Assembly (NCBI RefSeq): GCF_900095885.1
Contig: NZ_LT615367.1
Coordinates: 2,170,001 to 2,234,000 of the forward strand
Length of the DNA stretch: 64,000 nucleotides
From: Dickeya aquatica
Lineage (GTDB): Bacteria > Pseudomonadota > Gammaproteobacteria > Enterobacterales > Enterobacteriaceae
Direction: 5' to 3'
Shown: one piece after another, positions 42,256 to 60,849 of the stretch
How positions within the stretch are numbered: position 1 is the stretch's first letter
Layout of the letters: every line of letters starts with the position of its first letter
Translations under genes and position numbers: made by a program
Notes under the pieces: generated by a model
What the model was told of the DNA's origin: nothing
What the model saw: the letters and a program-made list of their open reading frames with translations, nothing else
The model's database searches: none

Positions 42256-43725
<1,470 letters not shown>

Positions 43726-43833
43726 ATAACGGCACAAATAGCGGGCGCGTTTTTAACGGGTCCAACATGGTATTTCGAAAAATATTGTTATGCTGGTGTC
43801 ATTCTGGCAGGGAGTATTTCGCCCGGCTGATGA

Positions 43834-45312
<1,479 letters not shown>

Positions 45313-45333
45313 TTGTTTCTCTTGATTATTACT

Positions 45334-45365
45334 CAGGGCAGTTTATCTGCCCTGTTTATTATTTC
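45334..45365 (+). terminator. Terminator after prtC
   Basis: CAGGGCAG pairs with CTGCCCTG around TTTAT, followed by a T-rich run, so prtA needs its own promoter. Confidence 0.8.
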
Positions 45366-47159
<1,794 letters not shown>

Positions 47160-47189
47160 TTAACGCAACCGGCATTGTCGTGAACACAG

Positions 47190-47216
47190 CGGGGCATGAT
47201 GCAGTGCCCCCTTTTT
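47190..47216 (+). terminator. Terminator after prtA
   Basis: GGGGCA pairs with TGCCCC across an 8-base loop, followed by CTTTTT. Confidence 0.7.
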
Positions 47217-47223
47217 GCCAACC

Positions 47224-47246
47224 AATTTAGTTACAACATACTTATT
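47224..47246 (-). other. Ter site (Tus binding), left arm
   Basis: Read on the minus strand the site is AATAAGTATGTTGTAACTAA followed by ATT; from memory it differs from E. coli TerB at one of 23 positions, near the 3' end. G6, whose partner cytosine locks in Tus, is present. By the known polarity it arrests forks moving right to left and lets forks moving left to right pass. Confidence 0.92.
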
Positions 47247-47313
47247 AAGATAAAAGAAGACGTCTGCCTGAAACAATCACTTAGTCACTTTCAATCAGGG
47301 GAATACACGCGTC

Positions 47314-47351
47314 ATCAGGGACGGGGTGACTGTTTTCCCGTCCCTGATTTA
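47314..47351. terminator. Hairpin downstream of kup
   Basis: ATCAGGGACGGG pairs with CCCGTCCCTGAT (12 bp) around an 11-base loop, 28 bp beyond the kup stop. It probably ends kup and backs up the prtA terminator. Confidence 0.6.
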
Positions 47352-47378
47352 TCGCGGTAGCGGGTAATTAACTCGTTG

Positions 47379-49247
47379 TTATATAGCTATTCTGCGGCCT
47401 ATCTCAATGACCTGATTGCCCGGTAGTTGATAATACTCTGTAACGTGCAGGCTGTTTCGCATCATCCAGGCAAACAGATAGGATTGCCAGCGAGGCAGCG
47501 CATCTGTTCCGTTTTTCGCGACGATCGACTCATGGCCAATGTAGTACGTGACGGCTTCATGATCCGTACATTGACGCAAAGGCGGCACACTTTGAAGCAG
47601 GGCAGGGATGTCCGGTTTTTCCATAAACCCATAATAAGCAACACCTTGCCAAAAGCCCGGATGTTTTTCCGTCAGTGAAAGTTTATCTTCATGGCGGACT
47701 CTCGGGACATCAAGAACCTGAATTGTCAGTGAGATGATTTTATCATGCAGTGCCTGGTTGCGTTTAACGTGCCAGCGCATCACCGGCGGTGCAACATCCT
47801 GAACCCGGGTGAGAAATACGGCGACGCCAGGTACCCGAGAAATGCCTTTTTGTGGCAACGACTGAAGAAACTCCTCTACAGATAATGCCTTGTCCGCCAC
47901 ACTCTGAGAAACACGCGTTACACCACGCCGCCAGATAAACATAATGCAGAAAACCAGCAACGCCAGTAGCAGCGGAACATAACCACCTTCAAAAAATTTA
48001 AGCATATTCGCAAAACAAAATCCGGCATCGATAATGATGAATAACCCCGTCACACCAAGGCTGGTTAACTTACTCCAGTGCCAAATTTTGCGCATGGCGA
48101 CATACAATAAGAGTGTGGTCATCAGCATGGTGATAGACACAGCGATACCGTAGGCGGCTGCCAGGCGTTCGGAGGACTGAAAGAACACCACCAGGCTGAT
48201 AGTGACAGCCATCAATAGCCAGTTCACCGTGCCCAGATAGATCTGGCCATAGCTTTGTTCCGCCAGTCTGGTGATTTTCATTCTGGGCAACCAGCCGAGC
48301 TGAATCGCCTGTCGCGTCATCGAGAAAGCCCCGGAAATGATAGCCTGACTGGCGATAATGGTGGCCAGCGTCGCCAGCACAATCAGTGGCATTTGCCATG
48401 CAGGTGGACATAAGCGATAAAAAATGTTGGTAGTGGCATCAGATCCTGAAAGAATAAATGCCGCCTGGCCTGCATAATTTAATAACAGGCAAGGAAGTGC
48501 CATAGCATACCAGGCAATCCAAATCGGCTTGCGTCCAAAATGCCCCATATCGGCATACAAGGCTTCAGCACCCGTCACACACAAGAACACGCCACCTAAA
48601 ATCAGTAAGCCAACATGGCCGTGAGTAACAAAAAACTCTAATGCATAGAAGGGATTAATCGCTAACAGCACCGCAGGATAATGCACAATACTTCGTATAC
48701 CGAGCACAGCCAGCGTCAGAAACCAGATAAGCATCACGGGGGCGAAAAATTGACTGATTCTTGCGGTGCCAAGCGGTTGAATGGCAAAGATAACGATCAA
48801 GATAACCAGCGTCAGAGGCAATATATAATCTGTCGTTTCAGGGACAACCAGCCCAAGCCCTTCAAGCGCGGATAGCACCGAGATAGCAGGGGTAATTGCC
48901 CCATCACCGTAGATGAACGCCGCGCCCAGCAAACCCGTTGCAATGATCCATGTCTGGCGTTTGGATTGATTATTCAAAAGCAGTGACATCAGGGCCAGTA
49001 CGCCACCTTCACCTCGATTATCAATACGCATTGCAAATAACGCATATTTTATTGATGTCACTATAATTAGTGTCCAGAACAATAGTGACAACAACCCCAG
49101 TACGGTCTCGGGCTGGGCACTGCCTCCGGCTAATTGTATGACCGTGTTGAAAGTATAAAGCGGGCTGGTACCAATATCGCCAAACACAATACCTAATGCG
49201 GAGATCGCCATTAAGCCAGGCGATTTGTCTTGCGGTGTAGGAGTCAT
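47379..49247 (-). CDS. kup: Low-affinity potassium transporter Kup
   Basis: Kup is an inner-membrane K+/H+ symporter used for potassium uptake, especially at low pH or high osmolarity. The 622-residue product equals E. coli Kup. About twelve hydrophobic helices and the family signatures ALGIVFGDIGTSPLYTFNTV, YALFAMRIDNRGEGGVLAL and FIYGDGAITPAISVLSALEG are seen. I chose the ATG at 49247 with GGGA upstream; a longer frame to 49292 adds 15 residues. It lies convergent to prtA, with a Ter site between them. Confidence 0.95.
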   Translation of the reverse strand: MTPTPQDKSPGLMAISALGIVFGDIGTSPLYTFNTVIQLAGGSAQPETVLGLLSLLFWTLIIVTSIKYALFAMRIDNRGEGGVLALMSLLLNNQSKRQTWIIATGLLGAAFIYGDGAITPAISVLSALEGLGLVVPETTDYILPLTLVILIVIFAIQPLGTARISQFFAPVMLIWFLTLAVLGIRSIVHYPAVLLAINPFYALEFFVTHGHVGLLILGGVFLCVTGAEALYADMGHFGRKPIWIAWYAMALPCLLLNYAGQAAFILSGSDATTNIFYRLCPPAWQMPLIVLATLATIIASQAIISGAFSMTRQAIQLGWLPRMKITRLAEQSYGQIYLGTVNWLLMAVTISLVVFFQSSERLAAAYGIAVSITMLMTTLLLYVAMRKIWHWSKLTSLGVTGLFIIIDAGFCFANMLKFFEGGYVPLLLALLVFCIMFIWRRGVTRVSQSVADKALSVEEFLQSLPQKGISRVPGVAVFLTRVQDVAPPVMRWHVKRNQALHDKIISLTIQVLDVPRVRHEDKLSLTEKHPGFWQGVAYYGFMEKPDIPALLQSVPPLRQCTDHEAVTYYIGHESIVAKNGTDALPRWQSYLFAWMMRNSLHVTEYYQLPGNQVIEIGRRIAI

Positions 49248-49412
49248 ATGCACATCCCGGTGAGAGTGTAGGATAAGAAAAATGCCGTGCAATGACAGTG
49301 TAGACGGTTATGTTATTTCAGACGTGATGCCATCGATATTTCTGCTTAACACATAACGAATCTTATTTCCATGAGAATGACGAACCCGGCCTTGACAATT
49401 AGCAGAGATAAA

Positions 49413-49444
49413 AACGGGGGTTATCTATTAAGATAACCCCCGTT
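49413..49444. terminator. Terminator after the expansin gene
   Basis: A perfect 14 bp stem AACGGGGGTTATCT with complement and an ATTA loop, followed on the minus strand by TTTTATC. Confidence 0.8.
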
Positions 49445-49501
49445 ATTTATAGCATTAACATCATTTATTCAGCATTTACTACTAATGCTCTGTCACTATT
49501 C

Positions 49502-50197
49502 TTACGGTAACTGCACCTTGCCAGTAATCAGATAGGCAGAGGATGTGTTATCAGGCATTGGCGGCAACGTATCGCTTAATATATTGCCTTTCACGTCGGT
49601 GAATTCGATAGGTGTATAGTTTTTACCTAAATTCTCCAGAATAAAGTGGTTGTAATCTGTTTTCGGCGGGCTTATCCATTTCCCATCACGTAAATATCTC
49701 AGTGAGAGAATAGGGTACTTAACATTTCTAATCTGTACTGCGGCCCAGTATGGGTTAGAACCCTCTTTAACGCGGTAGACAACATTCCCGGTAACAGGCC
49801 CCTTAACCAATTCCCACTGAATATTGATTTTGCCATCTTGCAGATTGCCAATTTTCTTGAATGCATTAAATGACAAGTCCAGTGCGCAATTGCCTCCTTC
49901 AGGATAAAGGTCCGTGACATAAACAATCGTGCTGCCTTTAGGGCCGGTGACTTTCAGATAAGCACCGGCCAATGCAGCTTTAACGCCTTTATAGTTGAGC
50001 TGTGCGGGGTTCAGTGCTGTGATTTCCATATCGGCTGGAATCGGGTCCAGCAATACAGCACCTCCTGAATATCCTGAGCCTGTTGCTGTTGCATAGCCGT
50101 AGCAAATATCACCGAGTTGCCAGGCTGCATGAGCACTTTGGCTCAGCGGTGCTAATAATACAGAAGATACTAATAGAGCAGTCTTTAATTTCATCAT
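49502..50197 (-). CDS. Secreted bacterial expansin (EXLX1-like)
   Basis: The 231-residue product is an expansin, which loosens plant cell walls by disrupting cellulose-hemicellulose contacts without hydrolysis. A signal peptide (MKLKTALLVSSVLLAPLSQSAHA) precedes domain 1 (GYATATGSGYSGGAVLLDPIP, then VTDLYPEG and LDLS, carrying the key aspartates) and cellulose-binding domain 2 (WAAVQIRN, KTDYNHF). It aligns through its length with Bacillus subtilis EXLX1; one of the surface aromatics (Trp125) is Tyr here, and two cysteines (GDICYG, GGNCAL) could pair. The ATG at 50197 has AGGA upstream. Expansins are patchily spread among plant-associated bacteria, suggesting transfer. Confidence 0.93.
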   Translation of the reverse strand: MMKLKTALLVSSVLLAPLSQSAHAAWQLGDICYGYATATGSGYSGGAVLLDPIPADMEITALNPAQLNYKGVKAALAGAYLKVTGPKGSTIVYVTDLYPEGGNCALDLSFNAFKKIGNLQDGKINIQWELVKGPVTGNVVYRVKEGSNPYWAAVQIRNVKYPILSLRYLRDGKWISPPKTDYNHFILENLGKNYTPIEFTDVKGNILSDTLPPMPDNTSSAYLITGKVQLP

Positions 50198-50735
50198 AAT
50201 TATATCCTTATATATTATTTGTTGTGAATGCATCCCAATGTGTTTAAACGCTTAAGCATTAAATGTTTAACGCTAAACGTGTATTTTTTTATAAATGAAC
50301 AGTAAAAAAATGTCAAAGAAGAAAATAGAGTATTTCTTTCTGTAAAAAGAAAAATAAACCGCATAATAAAAAACTAATTACATCCTTTTAGGATGGATAT
50401 AAGAATCCAAAATCATCTAACAAGATGATCTGTCTGGTTAAAAATAAGAAACCACAGCAAATGGATGAAAATTAACCAGGTAATGACAGGTACTTAGCGG
50501 AATCAACGTCGCGAGATTTTTTTTGCACATTTTGCATGGATGTTCAACAAAACAGTGTAAAACAAGTGCGCCACCGTCGTTTGGCGGGAAGTAGATGACC
50601 ACAATCTCGAGTGCCCGGTGAAAACAGCGCGATCGATATATCATTCTCGGCAGGAACATTGGTCGCGTCCGACGAGGCCAGGCTGACCGAAAGCACGCAG
50701 TGTGTCAGCAAATCTCGTTGCATGGTTTGGCCCCC

Positions 50736-50743
50736 GGGTAGGG
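50736..50743 (+). other. KOPS motif (GGGTAGGG)
   Basis: It matches GGGNAGGG and points at dif, 58 bp away. Confidence 0.55.
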
Positions 50744-50801
50744 CTGATTGTCTCTGAAGTTCATGTTGTCTCCACAAGCTGATATTTTACCCGCACATTT
50801 A

Positions 50802-50829
50802 ATTTAACATAATATACATTATGCGAACC
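50802..50829 (-). other. dif: dif chromosome dimer resolution site
   Basis: The 28 bp site reads on the minus strand as GGTTCGCATAA (XerC arm), TGTATA (centre), TTATGTTAAAT (XerD arm). It differs from E. coli dif only at the fourth base (T for G). XerCD, driven by FtsK, resolves chromosome dimers here at cell division. Confidence 0.95.
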
Positions 50830-50910
50830 AAGGTAAGGTCAGACAGATTCTGGTATCCGGGCTGGCCACATAGTTGGTCAGTACCGACACATCCCGAATG
50901 GCTCGGCTTG

Positions 50911-51468
50911 TCATTTGTCATCACCTATGAGCTGATGGCGTTCATCATCATGACCGGATTCGTTGTAAACGAAGATGCCAGCCAATACGTTAGCAATGAA
51001 AGGTTTCTTTTCTTTCAGATATTCTTTTATGCCATGCTTATTTTCAGACTCTAGTTTCAATTTCAGTGCCTGGTAAGCATTTCTGATCTCCTCATGGGCT
51101 ATCAGCGCATCGCGAAATTGTAGCATCGCGGCAATCTGTTCATGCCCGCGAATACAAACATGGATTTTATGCGTTCGTATGCCGTTATAATCTCGTTTAT
51201 AAAAGCGATGCCCTGGCGATAAATCTCTTCCTCTGACATATCCATGACGTATTAAATAATCATCAATACGAGATTCACAATGCTGTGGCGTTATCTCTGC
51301 CAGCAGATCAATTTCTGGCTTGGCCGCAAGGCCGGGAACGGCGGTGCTGCCAACATGATAAAAAGCAATCAGTGCACCACCAAACCCCTTTTCAAGGCGT
51401 TGACATTCAGCAAGAAACATTTCTGGCCACCGTGCGTTATATGCTGTGATTTTACTGGTCAATGCCAT
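50911..51468 (-). CDS. GrpB/UPF0157 family nucleotidyltransferase-like protein
   Basis: The 185-residue product belongs to the GrpB (UPF0157) family, with a nucleotidyltransferase-like core (FYHVGSTAVPGLAAKPEIDLL) and HKIHVCIRGHEQ. The biological role is not known. I chose the ATG at 51468 with AGGAG upstream; the frame continues to 51651, but that part overlaps the GNAT gene. Its start is 4 bp after the GNAT stop, so the two form an operon. It sits 80 bp from dif. Confidence 0.85.
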   Translation of the reverse strand: MALTSKITAYNARWPEMFLAECQRLEKGFGGALIAFYHVGSTAVPGLAAKPEIDLLAEITPQHCESRIDDYLIRHGYVRGRDLSPGHRFYKRDYNGIRTHKIHVCIRGHEQIAAMLQFRDALIAHEEIRNAYQALKLKLESENKHGIKEYLKEKKPFIANVLAGIFVYNESGHDDERHQLIGDDK

Positions 51469-51472
51469 ATTA

Positions 51473-51994
51473 CTATTTCTCCTGTCGATTGACGGGGCAA
51501 GATGAAGACAATTGTTTTTCCAGCCTGAGAATGCCTGTATTTTCATCAACCAGAACAAAACCATGACGATAATATAGAGCCAATGCCGGGCTATTAATAA
51601 AAACACAAAGTCGAAGCCAGCATAGATGTTGTTGCCGACATGTCGACTCAATCGTTTCCAGTACCCATTTACCTATGCCGTAATTGCGCCATTCTGGATA
51701 AAGCTGTAAATCTTTTATCCAGCAAAATGATGCGTTGATATCAGTTTTCAGACAAAAGAAACCGATAATCTCATCGTTGTAATAAATCGTGGTGGTGTCA
51801 TTCGTTGTTAATATCTCATGGTGGCGTTCCGAGTCCCAAAAAAGTGCATGCTGTTGATAATACTCAATCATATTATGATGACTTAAACGCTCCATCATAC
51901 ATAACTCATCTTCATTGGCTATTGAAAGCCGAATAAAAGATGGATTAGCAAACCTGCACTGCTCATTTTTTGCGTTGCCTTGTCTGGGTATCAT
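51473..51994 (-). CDS. GNAT family N-acetyltransferase
   Basis: The 173-residue product has GNAT features: the acetyl-CoA loop region LYPEWRNYGIGKWVLETIE, a preceding strand (IGFFCLKTDINASFCWIKDL), and the C-terminal ALALYYRHGFVLVDE, typical of the family. The acceptor substrate is unknown. The ATG at 51994 has GAGG nine bases upstream; a GTG at 52012 is an alternative. It is upstream of the grpB-like gene in a two-gene unit. Confidence 0.82.
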   Translation of the reverse strand: MIPRQGNAKNEQCRFANPSFIRLSIANEDELCMMERLSHHNMIEYYQQHALFWDSERHHEILTTNDTTTIYYNDEIIGFFCLKTDINASFCWIKDLQLYPEWRNYGIGKWVLETIESTCRQQHLCWLRLCVFINSPALALYYRHGFVLVDENTGILRLEKQLSSSCPVNRQEK

Positions 51995-52294
51995 TAGATT
52001 CAACCTCACCACTCATAAATACGGGTACTGGATATAAATAGCATTGCTGTTATTCCAGTGCTGACTGCAATCCCCTTCCCTATTTTTAAGATCGCCACAC
52101 CCTTTCCAGAACATATTGAAAATGCTGCAACATAATGAATTTTCAAGTGAAGCATAACGAAAAAAACAGATAAGACATAGAGCCAGCCCCAAAGTTGCGC
52201 TATGCTGCGATGATTGTCGCACTTGCCCGCCTGAGATGATGTCAAGGAACCTGATGCGTTCAGAATATGCAGTCAAATCAATGAGGAAAAAAAT
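51995..52294. other. Divergent promoter region, GNAT gene and ydfG
   Basis: This 300 bp region carries the promoters of both divergent units. No gene or repeat stands out. Confidence 0.4.
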
Positions 52295-53044
52295 ATGATT
52301 ATTTTTGTCACCGGTGCTACAGCGGGATTCGGCGAAACTATCACCCGACGCTTTATTCAGGAGGGCCACAAAGTTATCGCCAGCGGTCGTCGTCAGGAGC
52401 GGCTGGATGAACTCAAAGCCGAGTTCGGTGCCGCATTACTGCCACTGCGGCTGGATGTTCGCGATCGTCTGGCAGTGGAACAGGTGATGGCCGCTTTGCC
52501 CGCTGAATGGCGTGATATTGATGTTCTGGTTAATAATGCTGGTTTAGCTTTGGGCCTGGAGCCCGCCCACAGAGCCAGTGTTGATGAATGGGAAACCATG
52601 ATTGACACCAACAATAAAGGATTGGTGTTTATGACCCATGCATTATTACCCGATATGGTAAAACGCAATGTTGGCCACATTATTAATATCGGCTCTACTG
52701 CCGGTAGCTGGCCGTATATGGGCGGAAATGTTTATGGTGCCAGCAAAGCTTTTGTTCGCCAGTTTAGTTTAGGTTTACGCGCCGACCTTTCTGGCACGAA
52801 AGTGCGTGTTACTAATATTGAGCCGGGGTTAGTGGGTGGCACCGAGTTTTCTTCTGTACGTTTCAAAGGGGATGAGACTAAGGTCACCCAGACATATGAC
52901 AAAGCGGATCCGTTAACGGCAGAAGATGTGGCTGAGGCGGTGTTCTGGGTCGCCACCCTTCCCGCTCGAGTCAATATCAACACGCTGGAAATGATGCCGG
53001 TTAATCAAACCTATGGTGGCCTGAAAGTTAACCGTGATGAATGA
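52295..53044 (+). CDS. ydfG: NADP-dependent 3-hydroxy acid dehydrogenase YdfG
   Basis: YdfG is a short-chain dehydrogenase that oxidises L-allo-threonine, serine and 3-hydroxypropionate and reduces malonic semialdehyde. The 249-residue product shows TGATAGFGETITRR (coenzyme loop), VLVNNAGLALG, catalytic GSTAGSWPYMGGNVYGASK, and the YdfG C-terminus NQTYGGLKV. GAGG lies upstream of the ATG. The length is close to the 248 residues of E. coli. Confidence 0.93.
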   Translation: MIIFVTGATAGFGETITRRFIQEGHKVIASGRRQERLDELKAEFGAALLPLRLDVRDRLAVEQVMAALPAEWRDIDVLVNNAGLALGLEPAHRASVDEWETMIDTNNKGLVFMTHALLPDMVKRNVGHIINIGSTAGSWPYMGGNVYGASKAFVRQFSLGLRADLSGTKVRVTNIEPGLVGGTEFSSVRFKGDETKVTQTYDKADPLTAEDVAEAVFWVATLPARVNINTLEMMPVNQTYGGLKVNRDE

Positions 53045-53434
53045 ATGGGCTTAACACATTTAGCCTTGTTTTCTGCTGTGTATTCTGGGCTTTTGTTAAC
53101 GCATCGGCAACATGCGGTATTTGGGAGACAAAATGCAGCTAAGTTGGCTTTTCCTGAACATATTAAGTCGGTTATAGTTTCACGGTACGAGCCAATGTAT
53201 AGTTGCAGTGGATTTTTATAGGGCTGCCATGACTCTGGCGTACTTTATGTATTCATCATTCGATGTCGGTAAGGTGAATCCGCTCCGCTATCTGCCCCGG
53301 TTTAACCACCTGGTTGAGATAAACCCGGAGCATCGGAGATGCCTGCCTCTTGTTGAATGAGGGATATGCGTAAGTCTTTCGCAGCGAAAGTTTTGTACTA
53401 TGTACTAATCGTGATATTCCAGTCTGGGTGAAAC
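53045..53434. other. ydfG-ynfB intergenic region
   Basis: This 390 bp stretch has no gene. A small hairpin (CTTTCG around CAG, 53376-53390) is followed by TTTT and may be a weak terminator or leader structure of ynfB. Confidence 0.4.
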
Positions 53435-53791
53435 ATGCAGAAAAAAACACGGAAATTATTTCTTCTCATTACTTCGTCATTGTTTAGCCTGAGCGTATTG
53501 CACTCAGCACAGGCTGCACAGCACATCATCATTGATAATGGCAACAGCGTATTGTCAAAAGAAGCGGCACGCGAAAGCAGTGAAGACTGGAATGAAAAGC
53601 GTGCCTTGCGTAACAAGATCAATAAGCATCTTGAAAAACGCGTAGATAAAGCAGACAGAGATTTCGACAAAGCCGATATGGCCGAAGCGATGGAAGAGAA
53701 ATGTAAAGCCAGCTCCAACTTCAATGCTTATTGGGAAGCCAGCTCCTCTCGCTGTCTTGACCGCCGTACTGGTCGTCAGGTAACACCGTAA
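53435..53791 (+). CDS. ynfB: YnfB family (DUF1283) secreted protein
   Basis: The 118-residue product has a signal peptide (KLFLLITSSLFSLSVLHSAQA) and ends with the DUF1283 hallmark NAYWEASSSRCLDRRTGRQVTP-like block (here split by the usual spacing), which matches E. coli YnfB. The middle is highly charged and helical (NKHLEKRVDKADRDFDKADM). The function is unknown; two cysteines probably pair in the periplasm. A 14 bp hairpin follows the stop. Confidence 0.9.
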   Translation: MQKKTRKLFLLITSSLFSLSVLHSAQAAQHIIIDNGNSVLSKEAARESSEDWNEKRALRNKINKHLEKRVDKADRDFDKADMAEAMEEKCKASSNFNAYWEASSSRCLDRRTGRQVTP

Positions 53792-53809
53792 TCATTTTGA
53801 TTATTAAAT

Positions 53810-53843
53810 GTGATTACGGTGCCTTGTCCGGCACCGTAATCAC
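53810..53843. terminator. Hairpin after ynfB
   Basis: GTGATTACGGTGCC pairs perfectly with its complement around TTGTCC; no T-run follows. Confidence 0.55.
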
Positions 53844-53967
53844 GAGAGACAAGAAATCAGATGTTTTTCAGTCGCAGAGACGTTATTACCGCCCGGACTG
53901 ATGGAGAATGCTCGTCAAAACTGCTGATGCAGAAACAGACCTGCCAGCGAGGGGAACAGACGGCCCA

Positions 53968-54639
53968 TCAAACCGAGGCCGCAATGGCAGATAAGTCAAT
54001 ATAATGTGATAAGTCCCGTTGCTCCGCTCTTGGCAGGTATGGCAACTCACCTAATTGCGGCGCGGGAATTTTTTCACGCAACGCATGGATAATTTCAGCA
54101 TAATTAGCAAGGCCGGGGTTGATGCGGTTAGCCACCCAACCTACCAGCGGCAACCCATCGTTAATAACTGCTTGCGCAGTCAGTAATGCATGGCTGATGC
54201 AACCCAGTTTGATACCTACTACCAATACAACCGGTAACTGCTCTTGCACTACCCATTCGGAGTAAGTGCGCATGTCATTCATCAGTGTACGCCAGCCGCC
54301 ACTTCCCTCGACAATCACGATATCTGCCAGTGTGTTGAGCTCGTTCAGCCCTTCCGTCATCGCACAGTAGTTGATTTTCAGCTCACTGGCACTGATTTCA
54401 TCTTCCGGTAACGCAACCGGATTGACTTGTTCATAACGCAGCGCGACTGACGACGCTTCTAACAGAATTAACGCATCTTTATTACGTAACCCTTCTTCTG
54501 TCTCCACACTGCCTTTGGCAACAGGTTTATAACCGACCACCGTTTTACCCGTGTTCGTCAGCGCTTGTAATAACGCCTTCGATACCACGGTTTTACCCAC
54601 AGCCGTATCTGTTCCTGTAACAAACATACGCTTTAACAT
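53968..54639 (-). CDS. bioD2: Dethiobiotin synthetase paralogue (YnfK/BioD2)
   Basis: The enzyme closes the ureido ring of biotin using CO2 and ATP. The 223-residue product has the P-loop GTDTAVGKTVVSKA, the diaminopelargonate-binding region GYKPVAKGSVET, and IVEGSGGWRTLMND. It is the BioD2-type copy, next to mlc as in E. coli, rather than the bio operon copy. It lies on the same strand as mlc with 160 bp between. Confidence 0.92.
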   Translation of the reverse strand: MLKRMFVTGTDTAVGKTVVSKALLQALTNTGKTVVGYKPVAKGSVETEEGLRNKDALILLEASSVALRYEQVNPVALPEDEISASELKINYCAMTEGLNELNTLADIVIVEGSGGWRTLMNDMRTYSEWVVQEQLPVVLVVGIKLGCISHALLTAQAVINDGLPLVGWVANRINPGLANYAEIIHALREKIPAPQLGELPYLPRAEQRDLSHYIDLSAIAASV

Positions 54640-54799
54640 GAAAACACCACTCCGGCAGGTACCACCTGAAAGACAAACCTCAAAAACTTACTTATGAAGC
54701 ATAAAGTCTAGGGGATGGCCTGAGAATGCGGCTTGCGTTAGCGCAAGGTTTTGTCGGTCAGTGGCGACAGGGCGGGCATGGCCCTGTCATCGGTATGCA

Positions 54800-56017
54800 T
54801 CAACCTTGTAGCAGCTTGACCAATAGCGCACCGCTATACAGCGCATCTTTGATTAAGGCCGCACCTGGCACGGTACCTTGGTTATAAAAGTGGGTGGAAA
54901 TGACCTGTAGGTTATGACTATATGCAGGCAATGCCTGACGGCGAATGCAATCAATAATAGCCGGATATAAAATATCAGCCGCCTGATTTAACGGGGAACC
55001 GATGAGAATTTTATCGGGATTGAACAGATTGACCATAATAGCGGCAATACGGCCTACATTATTACCGACATCAACAATAATATCGTTTGCCAGTGGGTCA
55101 TTATTCAGCGCAGCCTCACACAGGGATTCCACCGTTAACGGGGAACCATGGAGCCGTGAACTCATTGAGCCTTTCAGACGCTGTTGTGCCAGCTCCAGTA
55201 TGCTGTCAATGCTGGCAACGGTTTCCAGACACCCGTGATTGCCGCAATAACAGCGCTTACCATAAGGGTCAACCTGCGTATGGCCAATTTCAACCAGCGT
55301 GCGACTACCCGCGTGCAGCATCCGCCCTCCGGTGATAACCCCTGCCCCTACGTTATGGTCAATAACGATTTGAATCGCGTTCTGGCATCCACGCGAAGCG
55401 CCAAATAGCCGTTCGGCCATCGTCCACGCACAGATATCATGTTGTAAATAAACCGGCACGCCAGTGCCCAGTTCCAGCGCAGGGCCTATTGCCATCTCTT
55501 CTACATCATAAAATGGCATGCGGTGAATAACGCCGGTGGCAGAATCCACTATCCCAGGTGAGGTAATGGCGATCGCTGTCAGACGCTCGAGTACACGCTG
55601 GTGGCGGATAAAAAAATGGTCTATTTCGTTTAAAATCCTATCAAGTAGCGGTTGCGGGTGTTCACGAGGTAAAGAAACGGACTCTTCCACGACCAGGCAT
55701 CCGCTCAGATCGCGCAACGCCAATGTCATCATCAAATGACTGATACGGACTGAAAGGAAGTGCCAGGCTTCAGTATCCAGTACCAGGCCTATTGCCGGGC
55801 GTCCACGGCTCCCCATATCTTGATATTCGGTTTCCTTGACCAGATGGGCTTCCATCAACTCACGCACAATCTTGGTAATACTGGCAGGGGCAAGCTGGGC
55901 TTGTTTGGATAATTCGATGCGGGAGATGGGGCCATATTCATCAATCAGCCGATAAACGCCCCCGGCATTCATCTGTTTAATCTGATCGATGTGTCCCGGC
56001 TGACCACTGGAAATCAC
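54800..56017 (-). CDS. mlc: Mlc, glucose-responsive ROK repressor
   Basis: Mlc represses ptsG, ptsHI and manXYZ and is removed by dephosphorylated PtsG when glucose is present. The 405-residue product has the N-terminal winged helix (SRIELSKQAQLAPASITKIVRELMEAHLV) and the ROK fold with the zinc site in GHTQVDPYGKRCYCGNHGCLE (His and three Cys). The length and most of the sequence match E. coli Mlc (406). A 8 bp inverted repeat (GACAGGGC, 54766-54788) lies just beyond the stop. Confidence 0.95.
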   Translation of the reverse strand: MISSGQPGHIDQIKQMNAGGVYRLIDEYGPISRIELSKQAQLAPASITKIVRELMEAHLVKETEYQDMGSRGRPAIGLVLDTEAWHFLSVRISHLMMTLALRDLSGCLVVEESVSLPREHPQPLLDRILNEIDHFFIRHQRVLERLTAIAITSPGIVDSATGVIHRMPFYDVEEMAIGPALELGTGVPVYLQHDICAWTMAERLFGASRGCQNAIQIVIDHNVGAGVITGGRMLHAGSRTLVEIGHTQVDPYGKRCYCGNHGCLETVASIDSILELAQQRLKGSMSSRLHGSPLTVESLCEAALNNDPLANDIIVDVGNNVGRIAAIMVNLFNPDKILIGSPLNQAADILYPAIIDCIRRQALPAYSHNLQVISTHFYNQGTVPGAALIKDALYSGALLVKLLQG

Positions 56018-56134
56018 TCTGAAACGGCTCCTGCAATTAAGCGTAACTGGGTATTTTTCACGCTGTAAAATAAAAAACTGAGGATATGGTGGAGCTTTTA
56101 CTAATGGTCGTCAATTATTTGATTCAGCGTGTGA

Positions 56135-57043
56135 TTAAACGCACATATTTTTCGTCGAACTTGCCAGCATCAAGGTAATCAGTGTCTGTGCGGCGGTATT
56201 CAATGGCCGCTGCCGATGGGAAACCCACATTTCACTGATAGCATCGTCCTGCTGTAATGACAGGTATTTCACCCCATCGACCCGGATTCGACAGAATGAG
56301 GCCGGCAGCAGCGAGACACCCAGCCCGGCAGAAACGAGACCAATAATGGTCATCGCTTCACCCACCTCTTGAGTGATATAAGGCGTGATGCCGTACTTTT
56401 TCAGCAATGTCAGCACCTCATCGTACAATGCGGTGCCCACCTCACGGGCAAAAAAAACGAACGGCTCTTGTGCCAGGTGCTGAATACTGATTCGCCCGGC
56501 CGGGGCGCTTGCCAGCGGGTGCTCTTCATGCACAACCGCCACCATAGGTTCATGCAACAGCAATTGGTGATGCAGCATATCTGGCAATGGGTTGTTTCGC
56601 ATCACACCTAAATCCAGTTTGCCATCAAGCAAGGGGCAATTTGCTGTTTGGTGTTGATCTCCAGCATCTGGATATGAACGTCGGGATAACGCTGACGAAA
56701 TTGTAACAGGCCACGCGACACGGGCTTTACAAAGGGTGCAGACGAGGTAAAACCGATGTTCAACTCCCCGATTTCCCCCGCTGGATACGCCGGCACGCTC
56801 TGCTGCCTGATTAACCTGATGGATGATGGCCCAGGCTTCTTTTAGAAATTGAGCACCGGCTTGTGTGAGCCGTACATTGCGGTTATTGCGCTCAAGCAGT
56901 TGTGCACCGAGCTGCTCTTCCAGAATCTGTATCTGCTGGCTTAACGGAGGCTGGGAGATATGCAGTTTTTCGGCGGCCCGGCCAAAATGAAGTTCTTCTG
57001 CAACGGCAATAAAATAGCGTAAGTGTCTGAGCTCAATATTCAT
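56135..57043 (-). pseudogene. ynfL: LysR-family regulator YnfL with two compensating frameshifts
   Basis: The 302-codon frame begins with a normal LysR domain (ELRHLRYFIAVAEELHFGRAAEKLH, HISQPPLSQQIQ) and ends with a normal effector domain (TQEVGEAMTIIGLVSAGLGVSLLPASF). Between about 56775 and 56633 roughly 47 codons are read in the wrong frame; the adjacent frame gives the expected GEIGELNIGFTSSAPFVKPV and YPDVHIQMLEINTKQQIAP. A likely extra base is in the C run 56775-56779 and a missing A at 56631-56632 (plus-strand view). It is either a damaged gene or paired base-call errors. It is divergent from ynfM, as in E. coli. Confidence 0.8.
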
Positions 57044-57152
57044 ACTTTAAAAATATCAATCCTGTTTATTAATATATTATACAAAACAATTATCTCAATT
57101 CTATGATGCGCGCACTGATGCTATTGCCGTATTTTCCGGATAAGGATTGATT

Positions 57153-58418
57153 TTGAGTACCCCGCTGTCTGCCCGTGAACTGGCTGCCTCTGTCATGGAT
57201 GATGTTACAACCCACTCAGCACCTTCTGGCCATAAACCCCCTTTTGTCACCCGGGGCACTCCGCAATTCATACAAATAACGCTGGCTCTGTTCTCTGCCG
57301 GGCTGGCGACCTTTGCATTATTGTATTGTGTACAACCGATACTGCCGGTGTTGTCGCAAGCATTTGGTACTTCACCGGCGAGCAGTAGCCTGTCACTTTC
57401 GGTGTCAACCATCACCATGGCTGCGGGGCTGCTTTTCACCGGGCCACTATCAGATACTATCGGTCGTAAAAATGTAATGGTGGTGTCTCTGTTGCTGGCT
57501 TCCGTTTGCACGCTGATCGCCTGCACGATGACGAACTGGCAAGGCCTGTTAGCCATGAGAGCGCTAACGGGGCTGGCTCTCAGTGGCGTCGCCGCGGTGG
57601 CGATGACCTACCTGAGCGAAGAGATGCACCCCAGTGTCGTGGCATTTTCGATGGGGTTATACATCAGTGGAAATTCGATTGGTGGTATGAGTGGCCGCCT
57701 GCTGACCGGGGTCATGACGGATTTTTTCGGCTGGCGTGTGGCCATCGCCTGTATCGGCAGCGTCGCGCTACTCGCGTCACTGATATTCTGGCGTATTCTG
57801 CCAGACTCTTGCCATTTTCGCGCCGGCTCGCTGCGACCGAAGATACTTTGGCTTAACGCACGGCTACACTGGCATGATGCTGGGTTGCCACTGCTGTTTG
57901 CTGAAGGTTTTTTGTTGATGGGCACCTTCGTCACACTGTTCAACTATATCGGTTATCGCCTGCTGGCAGGCCCTTATCAGTTGAGCCAAACTGTGGTGGG
58001 GTTACTGTCCGTTGTGTTTTTAACCGGCAGTTACGCTTCTCCTCGGGCAGGCGCCATGACCGCTCGTTTTGGCAGAGGCCCGGTACTGCTTGGCAGTATT
58101 ACGCTTATGTTATGCGGCCTGCTACTCACGTCATTCAGCCCGCTGATGGTGATACTGGTTGGGATGATGTTATTCACCGCCGGTTTTTTTGCGGCCCATT
58201 CTGTTGCCAGTAGCTGGATAGGCATCCGCGCCCAGCGGGCAAAAGGACAAGCCTCGTCACAGTACCTGTTTTGCTATTACCTCGGCTCAAGTCTGGCGGG
58301 TACGTTGGGTGGTTTCTTTTGGTATCACTATGGCTGGACGGGCATAGTCTTATTTTTATCCAGCCTGTTACTGCTGGCGTTATGGTTGGGTATCAAGCTA
58401 AAAGCATTAAAGAATTAA
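57153..58418 (+). CDS. ynfM: MFS transporter YnfM
   Basis: YnfM is a 12-helix major facilitator family exporter of the drug/arabinose efflux type; its substrate is not known. The product is about 421 residues. The family loop GPLSDTIGRKNVMV follows helix 2, and GTPQFIQITLALFSAGLATF starts helix 1, both as in E. coli YnfM. The start is probably TTG at 57153, with AAGGA 7 bases upstream; a TTG at 57147 is too close to that site, and an ATG at 57195 lacks one. It is divergent from the LysR gene. Confidence 0.9.
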   Translation: MSTPLSARELAASVMDDVTTHSAPSGHKPPFVTRGTPQFIQITLALFSAGLATFALLYCVQPILPVLSQAFGTSPASSSLSLSVSTITMAAGLLFTGPLSDTIGRKNVMVVSLLLASVCTLIACTMTNWQGLLAMRALTGLALSGVAAVAMTYLSEEMHPSVVAFSMGLYISGNSIGGMSGRLLTGVMTDFFGWRVAIACIGSVALLASLIFWRILPDSCHFRAGSLRPKILWLNARLHWHDAGLPLLFAEGFLLMGTFVTLFNYIGYRLLAGPYQLSQTVVGLLSVVFLTGSYASPRAGAMTARFGRGPVLLGSITLMLCGLLLTSFSPLMVILVGMMLFTAGFFAAHSVASSWIGIRAQRAKGQASSQYLFCYYLGSSLAGTLGGFFWYHYGWTGIVLFLSSLLLLALWLGIKLKALKN

Positions 58419-58498
58419 CTCCCCTGCCACAGTGCGTTCTGTTACCAGCTATTGGCTGGTAACCCTCCTGCTTTCCTGCCTGACACGATTTAACACCT

Positions 58499-58526
58499 TT
58501 GTTTCACCGAGCTGATGGGTTATACT
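58499..58526 (+). promoter_or_regulatory. tus promoter
   Basis: TTGTTT (-35), a 16 bp spacer and TATACT (-10) lie just before the Ter site, so bound Tus would cover the start of transcription. Confidence 0.6.
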
Positions 58527-58549
58527 TTATTGTATGTTGTAACTAAAAA
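58527..58549 (+). other. Ter site (Tus binding) in the tus promoter
   Basis: The core GTATGTTGTAACTAAA is identical to E. coli Ter sites, including the G at position 6; the five leftmost and two rightmost bases differ. It is placed as E. coli TerB is, upstream of tus. Its polarity stops forks moving left to right. Confidence 0.9.
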
Positions 58550-58558
58550 GGTTGGAAA

Positions 58559-59485
58559 ATGGCAGCGTATGATTTAATTGCCCGAATGAACCACTGCTTT
58601 AATTTACTGGAGCAGCAATTGGCACAGCTGGAGCAATGTTTCCAACAGCTTCCCTTTGTGGGCGGGCATGTGTTCAGGTTGCCGCCCGTGGAGAAAGGCA
58701 AAGAACACATGCCCGTCACACAAATTACGGTAACGCCCTATTCAGGCCAAGATGCCAGGGATAAAGGGTTAGCGCATTTTCGACATTTGTTTATTCACCA
58801 TCATGCCGAATCAGTTAGCAGTAAAGCCGCTATTCGCCTGCCTGGCGTGCTGTGTTTTCAGGTATCGACAACGCAGTATCATCAGGCGCGTGAACGAGTA
58901 GAACTGATCAATTCGCTGAAAAAAGAGCTGGAGCATATCGTAACGGTAGAATCAGGCCTGGAACCAGAGCAACGTTTCGATTTCGTTCACACACATCTAA
59001 AAGGGCTGATTACACTGAGTGCTTATCGCACGATCACCTTGCTTTGCGATCCCGCTTCCGTTCGTTTTGGCTGGGCTAATAAAAATATCATTAAAAACAT
59101 GACGCGCGAGGCATTACTGGCAAAACTGGAGAAAAGTCTGCGAGCAGGACGTAGCCAGGCTCCTTATAGCAAGGAACAGTGGGCCTTTTTGCTTGAGCAG
59201 GAAATTCGCGACGTAAAACGCCTGCCAGAGCAGGCCTCATTGAAAATAAAACGCCCGGTAAAGGTACAACCGATAGCCCGCGTCTGGTATCCGGAACAGC
59301 AAAAACAGGTGCAATATCCCTGCCCTTCTCCGCTGCTGGTGTTATGCCATCAGGATACCGTGCCGGTAATGGGCTACCTCAGTGATTATGATGCTGAAAA
59401 TATTCAGCATCGGCATCGACCCAAGGCAACACCATTAAGGCTGTTGATTCCCAGGCTGCACCTGTATACCGATGACAACATCTGA
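58559..59485 (+). CDS. tus: Tus, replication terminus site-binding protein
   Basis: Tus binds Ter sites as a monomer and blocks DnaB helicase from one side only. The 308-residue product matches E. coli Tus (309) along its length; visible family stretches include NHCFNLLEQQLAQLEQ, RFGWANKNIIKNMTREALLAKLEKSL and the C-terminal LRLLIPRLHLYTDDNI. AAGG lies 8 bases before the ATG. A Ter site overlaps its promoter, the known autorepression arrangement. In E. coli fumCA lies between tus and manA; here manA follows directly. Confidence 0.95.
   Translation: MAAYDLIARMNHCFNLLEQQLAQLEQCFQQLPFVGGHVFRLPPVEKGKEHMPVTQITVTPYSGQDARDKGLAHFRHLFIHHHAESVSSKAAIRLPGVLCFQVSTTQYHQARERVELINSLKKELEHIVTVESGLEPEQRFDFVHTHLKGLITLSAYRTITLLCDPASVRFGWANKNIIKNMTREALLAKLEKSLRAGRSQAPYSKEQWAFLLEQEIRDVKRLPEQASLKIKRPVKVQPIARVWYPEQQKQVQYPCPSPLLVLCHQDTVPVMGYLSDYDAENIQHRHRPKATPLRLLIPRLHLYTDDNI
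59318..59325 (-). other. KOPS motif (minus strand)
   Basis: CCCTGCCC on the plus strand is GGGCAGGG on the minus strand, pointing leftward to dif. Confidence 0.5.
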
Positions 59486-59688
59486 CAAACAGCCAGTAAG
59501 CCATCATCATGTTACACACGTAAACGGCATACGGGTGATTTTCAGAGGCATGGTGATTTTTCTGCGTCTGGAATCATGGCATATAAAGCACTAACATGGC
59601 GTGCCGTTGCACAATGATGTCATCATTGTACGGGTCGTACCCTTATTTACTAAAAAACTAACCTGTTGTTAGGTAACGAGCAAACATC

Positions 59689-60849
59689 ATGCAAAAAATG
59701 CGCAACAGTGTGCAGCATTATGCCTGGGGCAGCCGCTCAGCGCTGACGGAACGCTATGGCATTGAAAATCCAGATAACTTGCCGATGGCTGAACTGTGGA
59801 TGGGCGCACACCCTAAAGCAGCTCTTTTTTACTGGATGCACACGGACAAGCCCGTAATCTGCGCGATGTCATCGCACAGGATAAACCCGGCATGCTGGGG
59901 GCGACCATCGCCACGCGTTTTGGTGAACTGCCTTTTCTCTTCAAAGTGTTATGTGCCGAACAGCCGCTTTCAATTCAGGTGCACCCGAATAAAGCGTCGG
60001 CTCAGGCTGGGTTTGCCCGTGAAAATGCAGCCGGTATTAGCCTTGATGCACCAGAACGCAACTATAAAGATGCTAACCACAAGCCCGAGCTGGTATCTGG
60101 CCATGAACGGCTTTAGGGAGTTCAGCGCTATTGCGGCACTGTTGCAACCACTTGGTGACGCCCACCCCGCAATAGCCGCTTTTTTGCACCAGCCACAGGG
60201 CCAGACACTGGCGACCCTGTTTGCCAGCCTGCTCAGCATGACAGGTGCGCAGAAAGCCCAGGCATTAGCGCAGCTAAAACATGTCACACAAACATCTCAG
60301 GGCGAGCCGTGGGAGACTATCCGGTTTATTGCCCGCTATTACCCGGATGATGGCGGCCTGTTCTCACCACTTTTGCTCAATGTAGTCACACTGCGCCCCG
60401 GTGAAGCCATGTTCTTGCGGGCAGAGACACCACATGCTTACCTCCATGGTAGTGCGCTGGAAGTGATGGCGAATTCAGACAACGTGCTGCGTGCAGGACT
60501 AACGCCTAAGCACATCGATATTCCCGAACTGCTGGCAAATGTCCGTTTTGAGGCCACACCGGCGGCATCAATATTGACGTCTCCGGCCCGCATCGACGAT
60601 GAGTACCATTTCCCTATCCCGGTCGATGACTTTGCCTTTTCATTGCACCATCTTGATGGCACACCGCACAGGGTGTCTGAGCAAAGTGCCACTATTCTCT
60701 TTTGCGTTGAAGGACACGTATTGTTAGAGCAAGGTCAACAACAACTCAGCCTGTTTGCGGGTGAGTCCTGTTTTATTCCGGCCTGCGAATCATCGATAAA
60801 GATTCAGGGGAACGGCAAGGTGGCCCGGGTTTACAACCGGCCTTTATAA
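59689..60849 (+). pseudogene. manA: Mannose-6-phosphate isomerase with an internal out-of-frame segment
   Basis: The 386-codon frame starts and ends as ManA (SVQHYAWGSRSALTERYG; later LRPGEAMFLRAETPHAYLHGSALEVMANSDNVLRAGL). After HPK (residues 41-43) about 93 codons are read in the wrong frame. The adjacent frame has the true sequence, including FGELPFLFKVLCAEQPLSI, QVHPNK (zinc ligands) and NHKPELV (zinc glutamate). A lost A near 59815-59818 and a missing 17 bases near 60095 (where FALTP-type residues are absent) together restore the frame. As read, the product would lack three zinc ligands and be inactive; a sequencing error is possible. Confidence 0.85.

Follow-up and report, generated by a model that had tools for sequence, protein, structure and literature searches.

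The replication fork traps closest to the one considered here are type I Tus-Ter traps. Passages of PMC8707476 describe such traps, among them an 18 kb trap in Dickeya (now Musicola) paradisiaca, as well as a two-Ter dyad of 56 kb in Edwardsiella tarda; Toft 2022 is cited for the D. paradisiaca trap in PMC10331603 and PMC12914326, the former of which also states that this species uses two functional sites on one arm. We analysed a stretch of 64,000 nucleotides of the Dickeya aquatica chromosome (hereafter "the window"; positions 2170001-2234000 of 4,501,560 bp), in which two opposed Ter sites, one beside the gene kup (kup-Ter) and one in front of tus (tus-Ter), lie 11.3 kb apart with dif between them. 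This narrow trap belongs to the published type I kind. Judging from its sequence, we consider it very likely that the locus makes up the innermost section of a type I trap, in which replication forks would fuse within the 11.3 kb around dif.

As passages of PMC8707476 set out for type I traps, tus is chromosomal here and has a Ter site less than 50 bp upstream that is innermost on its side; a tus-vicinal Ter that is not innermost, the mark of type II traps, is not what we find. Ter sites opposed across dif, another type I trait, are likewise present. The tus-vicinal Ter is also innermost in D. paradisiaca, where the opposed pair is narrow as well; the 18.0 kb pair of the Musicola-like genome G096, which is presumably this species, has its inner Ter beside kup and fits the published 18 kb trap. 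It differs from the pair described here in width (18.0 versus 11.3 kb), in having its site resembling E. coli TerA on the kup side rather than the tus side, and in the T at position 20 of that site, which is C in our genome. The E. tarda dyad likewise encloses dif between opposed sites, one of them tus-Ter, and has its skew flip inside; the pair described here is five times narrower and is accompanied by a third exact-core Ter site. The E. coli trap (TerA-TerJ), which is of type II, has an orthologous Tus, the same Ter core, a TerB-like site before tus and a TerA-like site between lapB and pyrF; however, its innermost opposed pair, TerA-TerC, spans about 267 kb by coordinates (more than 250 kb, as the original prediction had it), and TerB is not innermost. 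Lastly, the wide two-Ter trap of Cedecea neteri, described in passages of PMC8707476, resembles the present one in its tus-Ter and in a Ter before pyrF. The survey genome G147 carries the Ter and dif sites at the C. neteri coordinates given in those passages (3001, 3565 and 3424 kb), with the second Ter just upstream of pyrF, but this trap is 564 kb wide and has no inner site of the kup type.

The opposed Ter pair around dif

We call a Ter site exact-core if it matches GNATGTTGTAACTA exactly. There are three such matches in the 4.5 Mb genome (2217228, minus; 2228532, plus; 2721747, plus), all in the orientation permissive for forks coming from the origin, versus none for the reversed control pattern; the exact-core sites are therefore not chance matches. 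The first two are kup-Ter and tus-Ter, and this whole-genome search found no further exact core between tus-Ter and dif. When up to 2 mismatches were allowed, the core gave 54 matches in the whole genome versus 76 for the control, such that weaker Ter-like matches, being without any excess, are uninformative. Two candidates with one core mismatch, at genome positions 2320170 (minus, within a reading frame) and 954720 (plus), were rejected as functional sites; both would oppose forks from the origin.

The original prediction gave kup-Ter, at the place and on the strand listed in Table 1, a single difference from E. coli TerB, and the two indeed agree at 22 of 23 positions (AATAAGTATGTTGTAACTAAAGT, from NC_000913). 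The predicted polarity of the sites, the position of dif inside the pair and of tus at one end, and the width of 11.3 kb stand as well. For tus-Ter the location and strand were right, but its 16 bp core, described as intact, matches AGNATGTTGTAACTAA at 15 of 16 positions, with T in place of A at position 5 and with G6 and positions 8-20 intact. This site had also been placed in the tus promoter; it does lie in the 5' flank of tus, but scanning this flank for the sigma-70 consensus gave no plus-strand promoter; the sole match was on the minus strand, with 0.5 matches expected by chance. The dif sequence GCATAATGTATATTATGTTAAAT has one match in the whole genome at up to 3 mismatches, which begins at window position 50802, as predicted.

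The arrangement is kept across the genus. A single dif match lies inside an opposed Ter pair in all nine Dickeya genomes, with tus-Ter as one side of every pair; ours is the narrowest at 11.3 kb, and the others span 12.2, 13.7, 17.0, 20.2, 22.3, 24.8, 27.3 and 30.1 kb. The distance from dif is 7.7-10.7 kb to tus-Ter and 2.1-21.4 kb to the kup-side Ter, which stands beside a serralysin-like gene in 9/9 genomes and has kup, or a piece of it, on its far side in eight (only a 119-residue piece in G021; no kup match in G017). Thus, a narrow trap is not the rarity that had been supposed: type I traps are published (passages of PMC8707476), all nine genus genomes have a narrow pair, and a pair in another genus spans 6.5 kb.

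Because kup-Ter stands in the gap where the serralysin-like gene and kup converge, directly 3' of a terminator-like hairpin, it could act mainly as a transcription roadblock, or be a chance match; terminator-like matches number two in positions 47100-47450 versus 0.2 expected. We consider either explanation extremely improbable. The exact core and its polarity are constant in 9/9 genus genomes, including G017 with no kup match adjacent, and are kept in G096, which gave no serralysin match there; the reversed control pattern, with 0 matches in the genome, speaks against chance.

Tus scores 353 bits against the E. coli Tus structure 1ecr and is identical to E. coli Tus at 168 of 309 positions. 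I79, F140, H144, G149, L150 and R198 are kept; we take the first five to be the C6-binding residues and R198 to be a residue of the pocket, and a literature search for papers naming Tus pocket residues found none. On that assignment, the conserved C6-binding residues are a further type I trait of this locus.

Predicted fork fusion at the terminus

The trap lies opposite the origin. oriC, flanked by mnmG and mioC, sits where the contig ends meet: mioC occupies positions 42-482, and mnmG matches run up to 4501000, the end of the stretch examined. The minimum of the cumulative guanine-cytosine (GC) skew is at about position 227, and dif is at 49.3% of the contig, counted from this minimum. A stretch at 4447.7 kb (second DnaA box, GATC-rich) was rejected as oriC, since it is the start of the dnaA gene and mnmG and mioC are at the contig ends.

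A Ter site bound by Tus stops the fork that arrives at its G6 end, as is established for E. coli. We infer binding, arrest and fork timing at this locus as follows. Tus, encoded at 58559-59485, would bind both kup-Ter and tus-Ter; the rightward fork would be let in by kup-Ter and stopped by tus-Ter, and the leftward fork would be stopped by kup-Ter, with fusion taking place within the 11.3 kb between them. The equal-arm midpoint is at about 2.251 Mb, some 22 kb beyond tus-Ter; because of this, the rightward fork would, at equal fork speeds, arrive first at tus-Ter and usually wait there for the leftward fork. A delayed rightward fork would be the case in which kup-Ter comes into play. tus-Ter may have a second role: in E. 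coli, TerB is the site from which Tus represses tus (passages of PMC8707476), and since tus-Ter ends 9 nt ahead of the tus start codon (ATG at 58559), autorepression of tus is likely here, too.

The GC-skew change point does not place fork convergence outside the trap, an outcome that the original prediction had listed as refuting it. The GC-skew change point, over 424 kb around the terminus, is at genome position 2224132 (window 54132), inside the trap, with a block-bootstrap 95% range of 2217684-2227886; 96% of 300 replicates fell inside the trap, and 0/300 at or beyond the equal-arm midpoint. FtsK-orienting polar sequences (KOPS) over the 424 kb change polarity at dif: 19 of the 23 plus-strand copies lie to its left and 17 of the 19 minus-strand copies to its right, with the best flip at 2220736-2222073.

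Several points nevertheless weigh against this explanation. By likelihood, the GC change point has an 8-nat range of 2215416-2234571, which exceeds the width of the trap, and the maximum of the T-A skew is at 2209073, outside it. Position 5 of tus-Ter is T; according to passages of PMC10331603, changes at positions 1-5 and 7 are not likely to alter the binding of Tus in E. coli. The third exact-core Ter means that the trap is not strictly two-site. GC skew and KOPS alone do not separate Tus arrest from FtsK selection, and both may reflect dif and FtsK instead of Tus arrest; indeed, passages of PMC3140498 report that the FtsK activity zone of E. coli is the same in a tus mutant. An alternative possibility is that the sites are real but that forks usually fuse by timing, with dif, FtsK and KOPS setting the skew switch and the trap serving as a rarely used safety device. 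The KOPS flip exactly at dif would fit this, as would the skew of C. neteri, which tracks dif rather than the Ter sites (passages of PMC8707476). However, the midpoint lies outside tus-Ter, such that forks moving at equal speed must meet this site, and every one of the nine genus genomes retains a narrow Ter pair flanking dif. We therefore give fusion by timing a minority chance, and favour fusion between kup-Ter and tus-Ter. In narrow natural traps of this kind, about 11 kb hold dif, the skew switch and the zone in which forks should fuse, and models of the place and cause of fork fusion are therefore cleanly testable by deletion of tus.

The Ter site before pyrF and the age of the narrow pair

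The original prediction had only two Ter sites; the whole-genome core search yielded a third exact core (2721747, plus), 493 kb to the right of the inner pair and outside the window, between lapB and pyrF. E. coli TerA lies in the same gap, between lapB (end 1341727) and pyrF (start 1341921), and has the same polarity relative to both genes. Compared with a two-Ter dyad, our genome has its trap opposite oriC and the skew flip inside, but with this candidate site it holds more than two Ter sites. The third Ter matches 15 of 16 core positions, with C in place of A at position 20, and may be weak on this account. All nine genus genomes have an exact-core Ter between lapB and pyrF, with A20 kept in eight and C only in ours. 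We propose that the third Ter would be an older outer site at the place of TerA, now on the tus side and altered at position 20.

The TerA-like site is on the kup arm in G017, G018, G019, G022 and G024 and on the tus arm in our genome and G020, its arm being hidden by contig breaks in G021 and G023. Since the Dickeya core trap occurs in either orientation relative to TerA, it seems to flip as a unit; a core trap turned in this way remains functional, and passages of PMC8347550 describe an inversion of this kind in E. coli EDL933. Near a HypC-family gene, 5/9 genus genomes share another outer Ter, to which no exact core corresponds in ours.

We surveyed one genome per genus in 69 genera. Thirty-nine have a Tus match, and all 39 have an exact-core Ter on the same strand within 130 nt upstream of tus; in 28 of the 39, an exact-core Ter also lies no more than 500 nt upstream of pyrF, on the strand opposite this gene. 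When both strands of the lapB-pyrF gap were scanned, 29/29 strong matches (these 28 and G120) were on the strand opposite pyrF, and the best stretch in the 11 other tus-bearing genera reached only 10-11 of 16 positions. Trap widths were taken from exact cores only and required both innermost sites on the dif contig, as found in 29 of the 39 tus-bearing genera; they range from 6.5 kb (G114) to 563.8 kb (G147), with our genome second narrowest, and one exact core of opposing orientation, in G145, was judged by linear position. A kup-side inner Ter was seen only in the nine genus genomes and the Musicola-like G096. Ten Pectobacterium genomes have two exact cores each, before tus and before pyrF (lapB being further off in G004), and none of the ten searched showed a kup-side Ter. 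E. coli TerD lies between narK and narG, and Prodigiosinella and an Enterobacter each have a corresponding Ter with this polarity. Ter sites thus keep their genomic addresses across genera, TerA at lapB-pyrF and TerD at narK-narG, and trap evolution can therefore be traced site by site; the published two-Ter ancestor need not be taken for granted but is open to test. A lapB-pyrF address of TerA common to several genera was not found in the passages of the literature searched; those of PMC3140498, PMC10157177 and PMC8707476 do not mention pyrF or narG as a Ter address common to several genera, and passages of PMC8347550 compare Salmonella and Klebsiella Ter sites without gene addresses.

Two further observations come from the survey. 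Sixteen genera, many with small reduced genomes, have pyrF and no Tus match, and the lapB-pyrF Ter is present in one of them, G120, a genome of the same family as Dickeya; this two-contig genome holds 7 exact-core Ter sites (contigs C1 and C2), including the one at lapB-pyrF, with no Tus by protein or PF05472 search, and may have lost tus while its Ter sites remain. Opposed exact-core pairs only 122-205 bp apart occur on G104:C2, G138:C16, G085:C24, G148:C54 and G120:C1; in genomes where a dif match was found, the best such match is on a different contig from the pair. These pairs recall the ter pair of plasmid R1.

We infer the age of the sites from this distribution. After Toft 2021, a narrow two-Ter trap could be the ancestral form in Enterobacterales, unchanged here, and the original prediction offered this trap as an example of that form. 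The type I architecture, with the vicinal Ter innermost, agrees with such an origin, and a two-Ter ancestor is proposed in passages of PMC8707476. The distribution of sites does not support it: the third Ter of our genome is at the place of E. coli TerA, exact-core sites at this place recur in the majority of tus-bearing genera and always on one strand, and the exact cores of Pectobacterium are the tus-Ter and the site before pyrF. We mapped the presence of the lapB-pyrF Ter on a Tus tree of 43 rows (the 39 genera plus E. coli, D. undicola, D. oryzae and P. aroidearum; Lonsdalea, with a broken frame, and Y. ruckeri were left out), where it requires 3 changes versus 9.9 for shuffled labels. Plain parsimony over 84 root places has the site present at the root for 59 (69% of tree length), absent for 22 and undecided for 3, the last two leaving room for the two-Ter ancestor; since the root state varies with root place, our claim about the ancestor rests also on the improbability of repeated independent gains at a single gap and in a single orientation. 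Because the Ter at the TerA place is widespread and the kup-side Ter is restricted to the genus and G096, the narrow pair seems to be a derived state, in which an older, wider trap gained an inner Ter, with plain parsimony still dependent on the root. The two-Ter ancestral reading probably reversed the order of events, and we regard a narrow ancestral trap preserved here as quite improbable.

It seems to us reasonably probable, instead, that the ancestor of tus-bearing Enterobacterales had a wide pair, consisting of tus-Ter and a TerA between lapB and pyrF, that narrow traps were built repeatedly by the addition of an inner Ter beside dif, and that the Dickeya core trap flips as a unit. The inner Ter would have been added at kup in Dickeya and the Musicola-like genome, near a glyceraldehyde-3-phosphate dehydrogenase gene in Prodigiosinella and G114, and elsewhere in Lonsdalea and G103.

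Features of the window

Table 1. Positions, strands and matches of the features discussed, numbered from the first base of the window.
Feature	Position	Strand	Sequence, match or setting
Serralysin-type metalloprotease gene	45723-47159	plus	PF08548, E 3.5e-91; convergent with kup; flanks kup-Ter
Terminator-like hairpin and T run	47191-47215	plus	3' of the serralysin-like gene, just ahead of kup-Ter; consensus match only
kup-Ter (inner Ter)	47224-47246	minus	AATAAGTATGTTGTAACTAAATT; between the serralysin-like gene and kup
kup, potassium transporter	47379-49292	minus	PF02705, E 7.6e-175; 3' end toward kup-Ter
dif, chromosome dimer resolution site	50802-50829	minus	GCATAATGTATATTATGTTAAAT at genome 2220802-2220824
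tus-Ter	58527-58549	plus	TTATTGTATGTTGTAACTAAAAA; 5' flank of tus
tus, replication terminus site-binding protein	58559-59485	plus	308 aa; PF05472, E 2.8e-134

Beside kup-Ter, serralysin-type metalloprotease genes stand in tandem (window 43000-47159), and most other genus genomes have at least two there. On the far side of tus, manA (59689-60849) is 57-62% alike to its genus counterparts, below the values for tus (79-85%) and ydgA (62-77%). Inside the trap, the middle of the LysR-type gene at 56135-57043 looks odd. Errors in the sequence or frame changes may be present locally. The spacing between tus and manA (59485-59689) is about 200 bases here and in G020, and about 1.6 kb in the other seven genus genomes.

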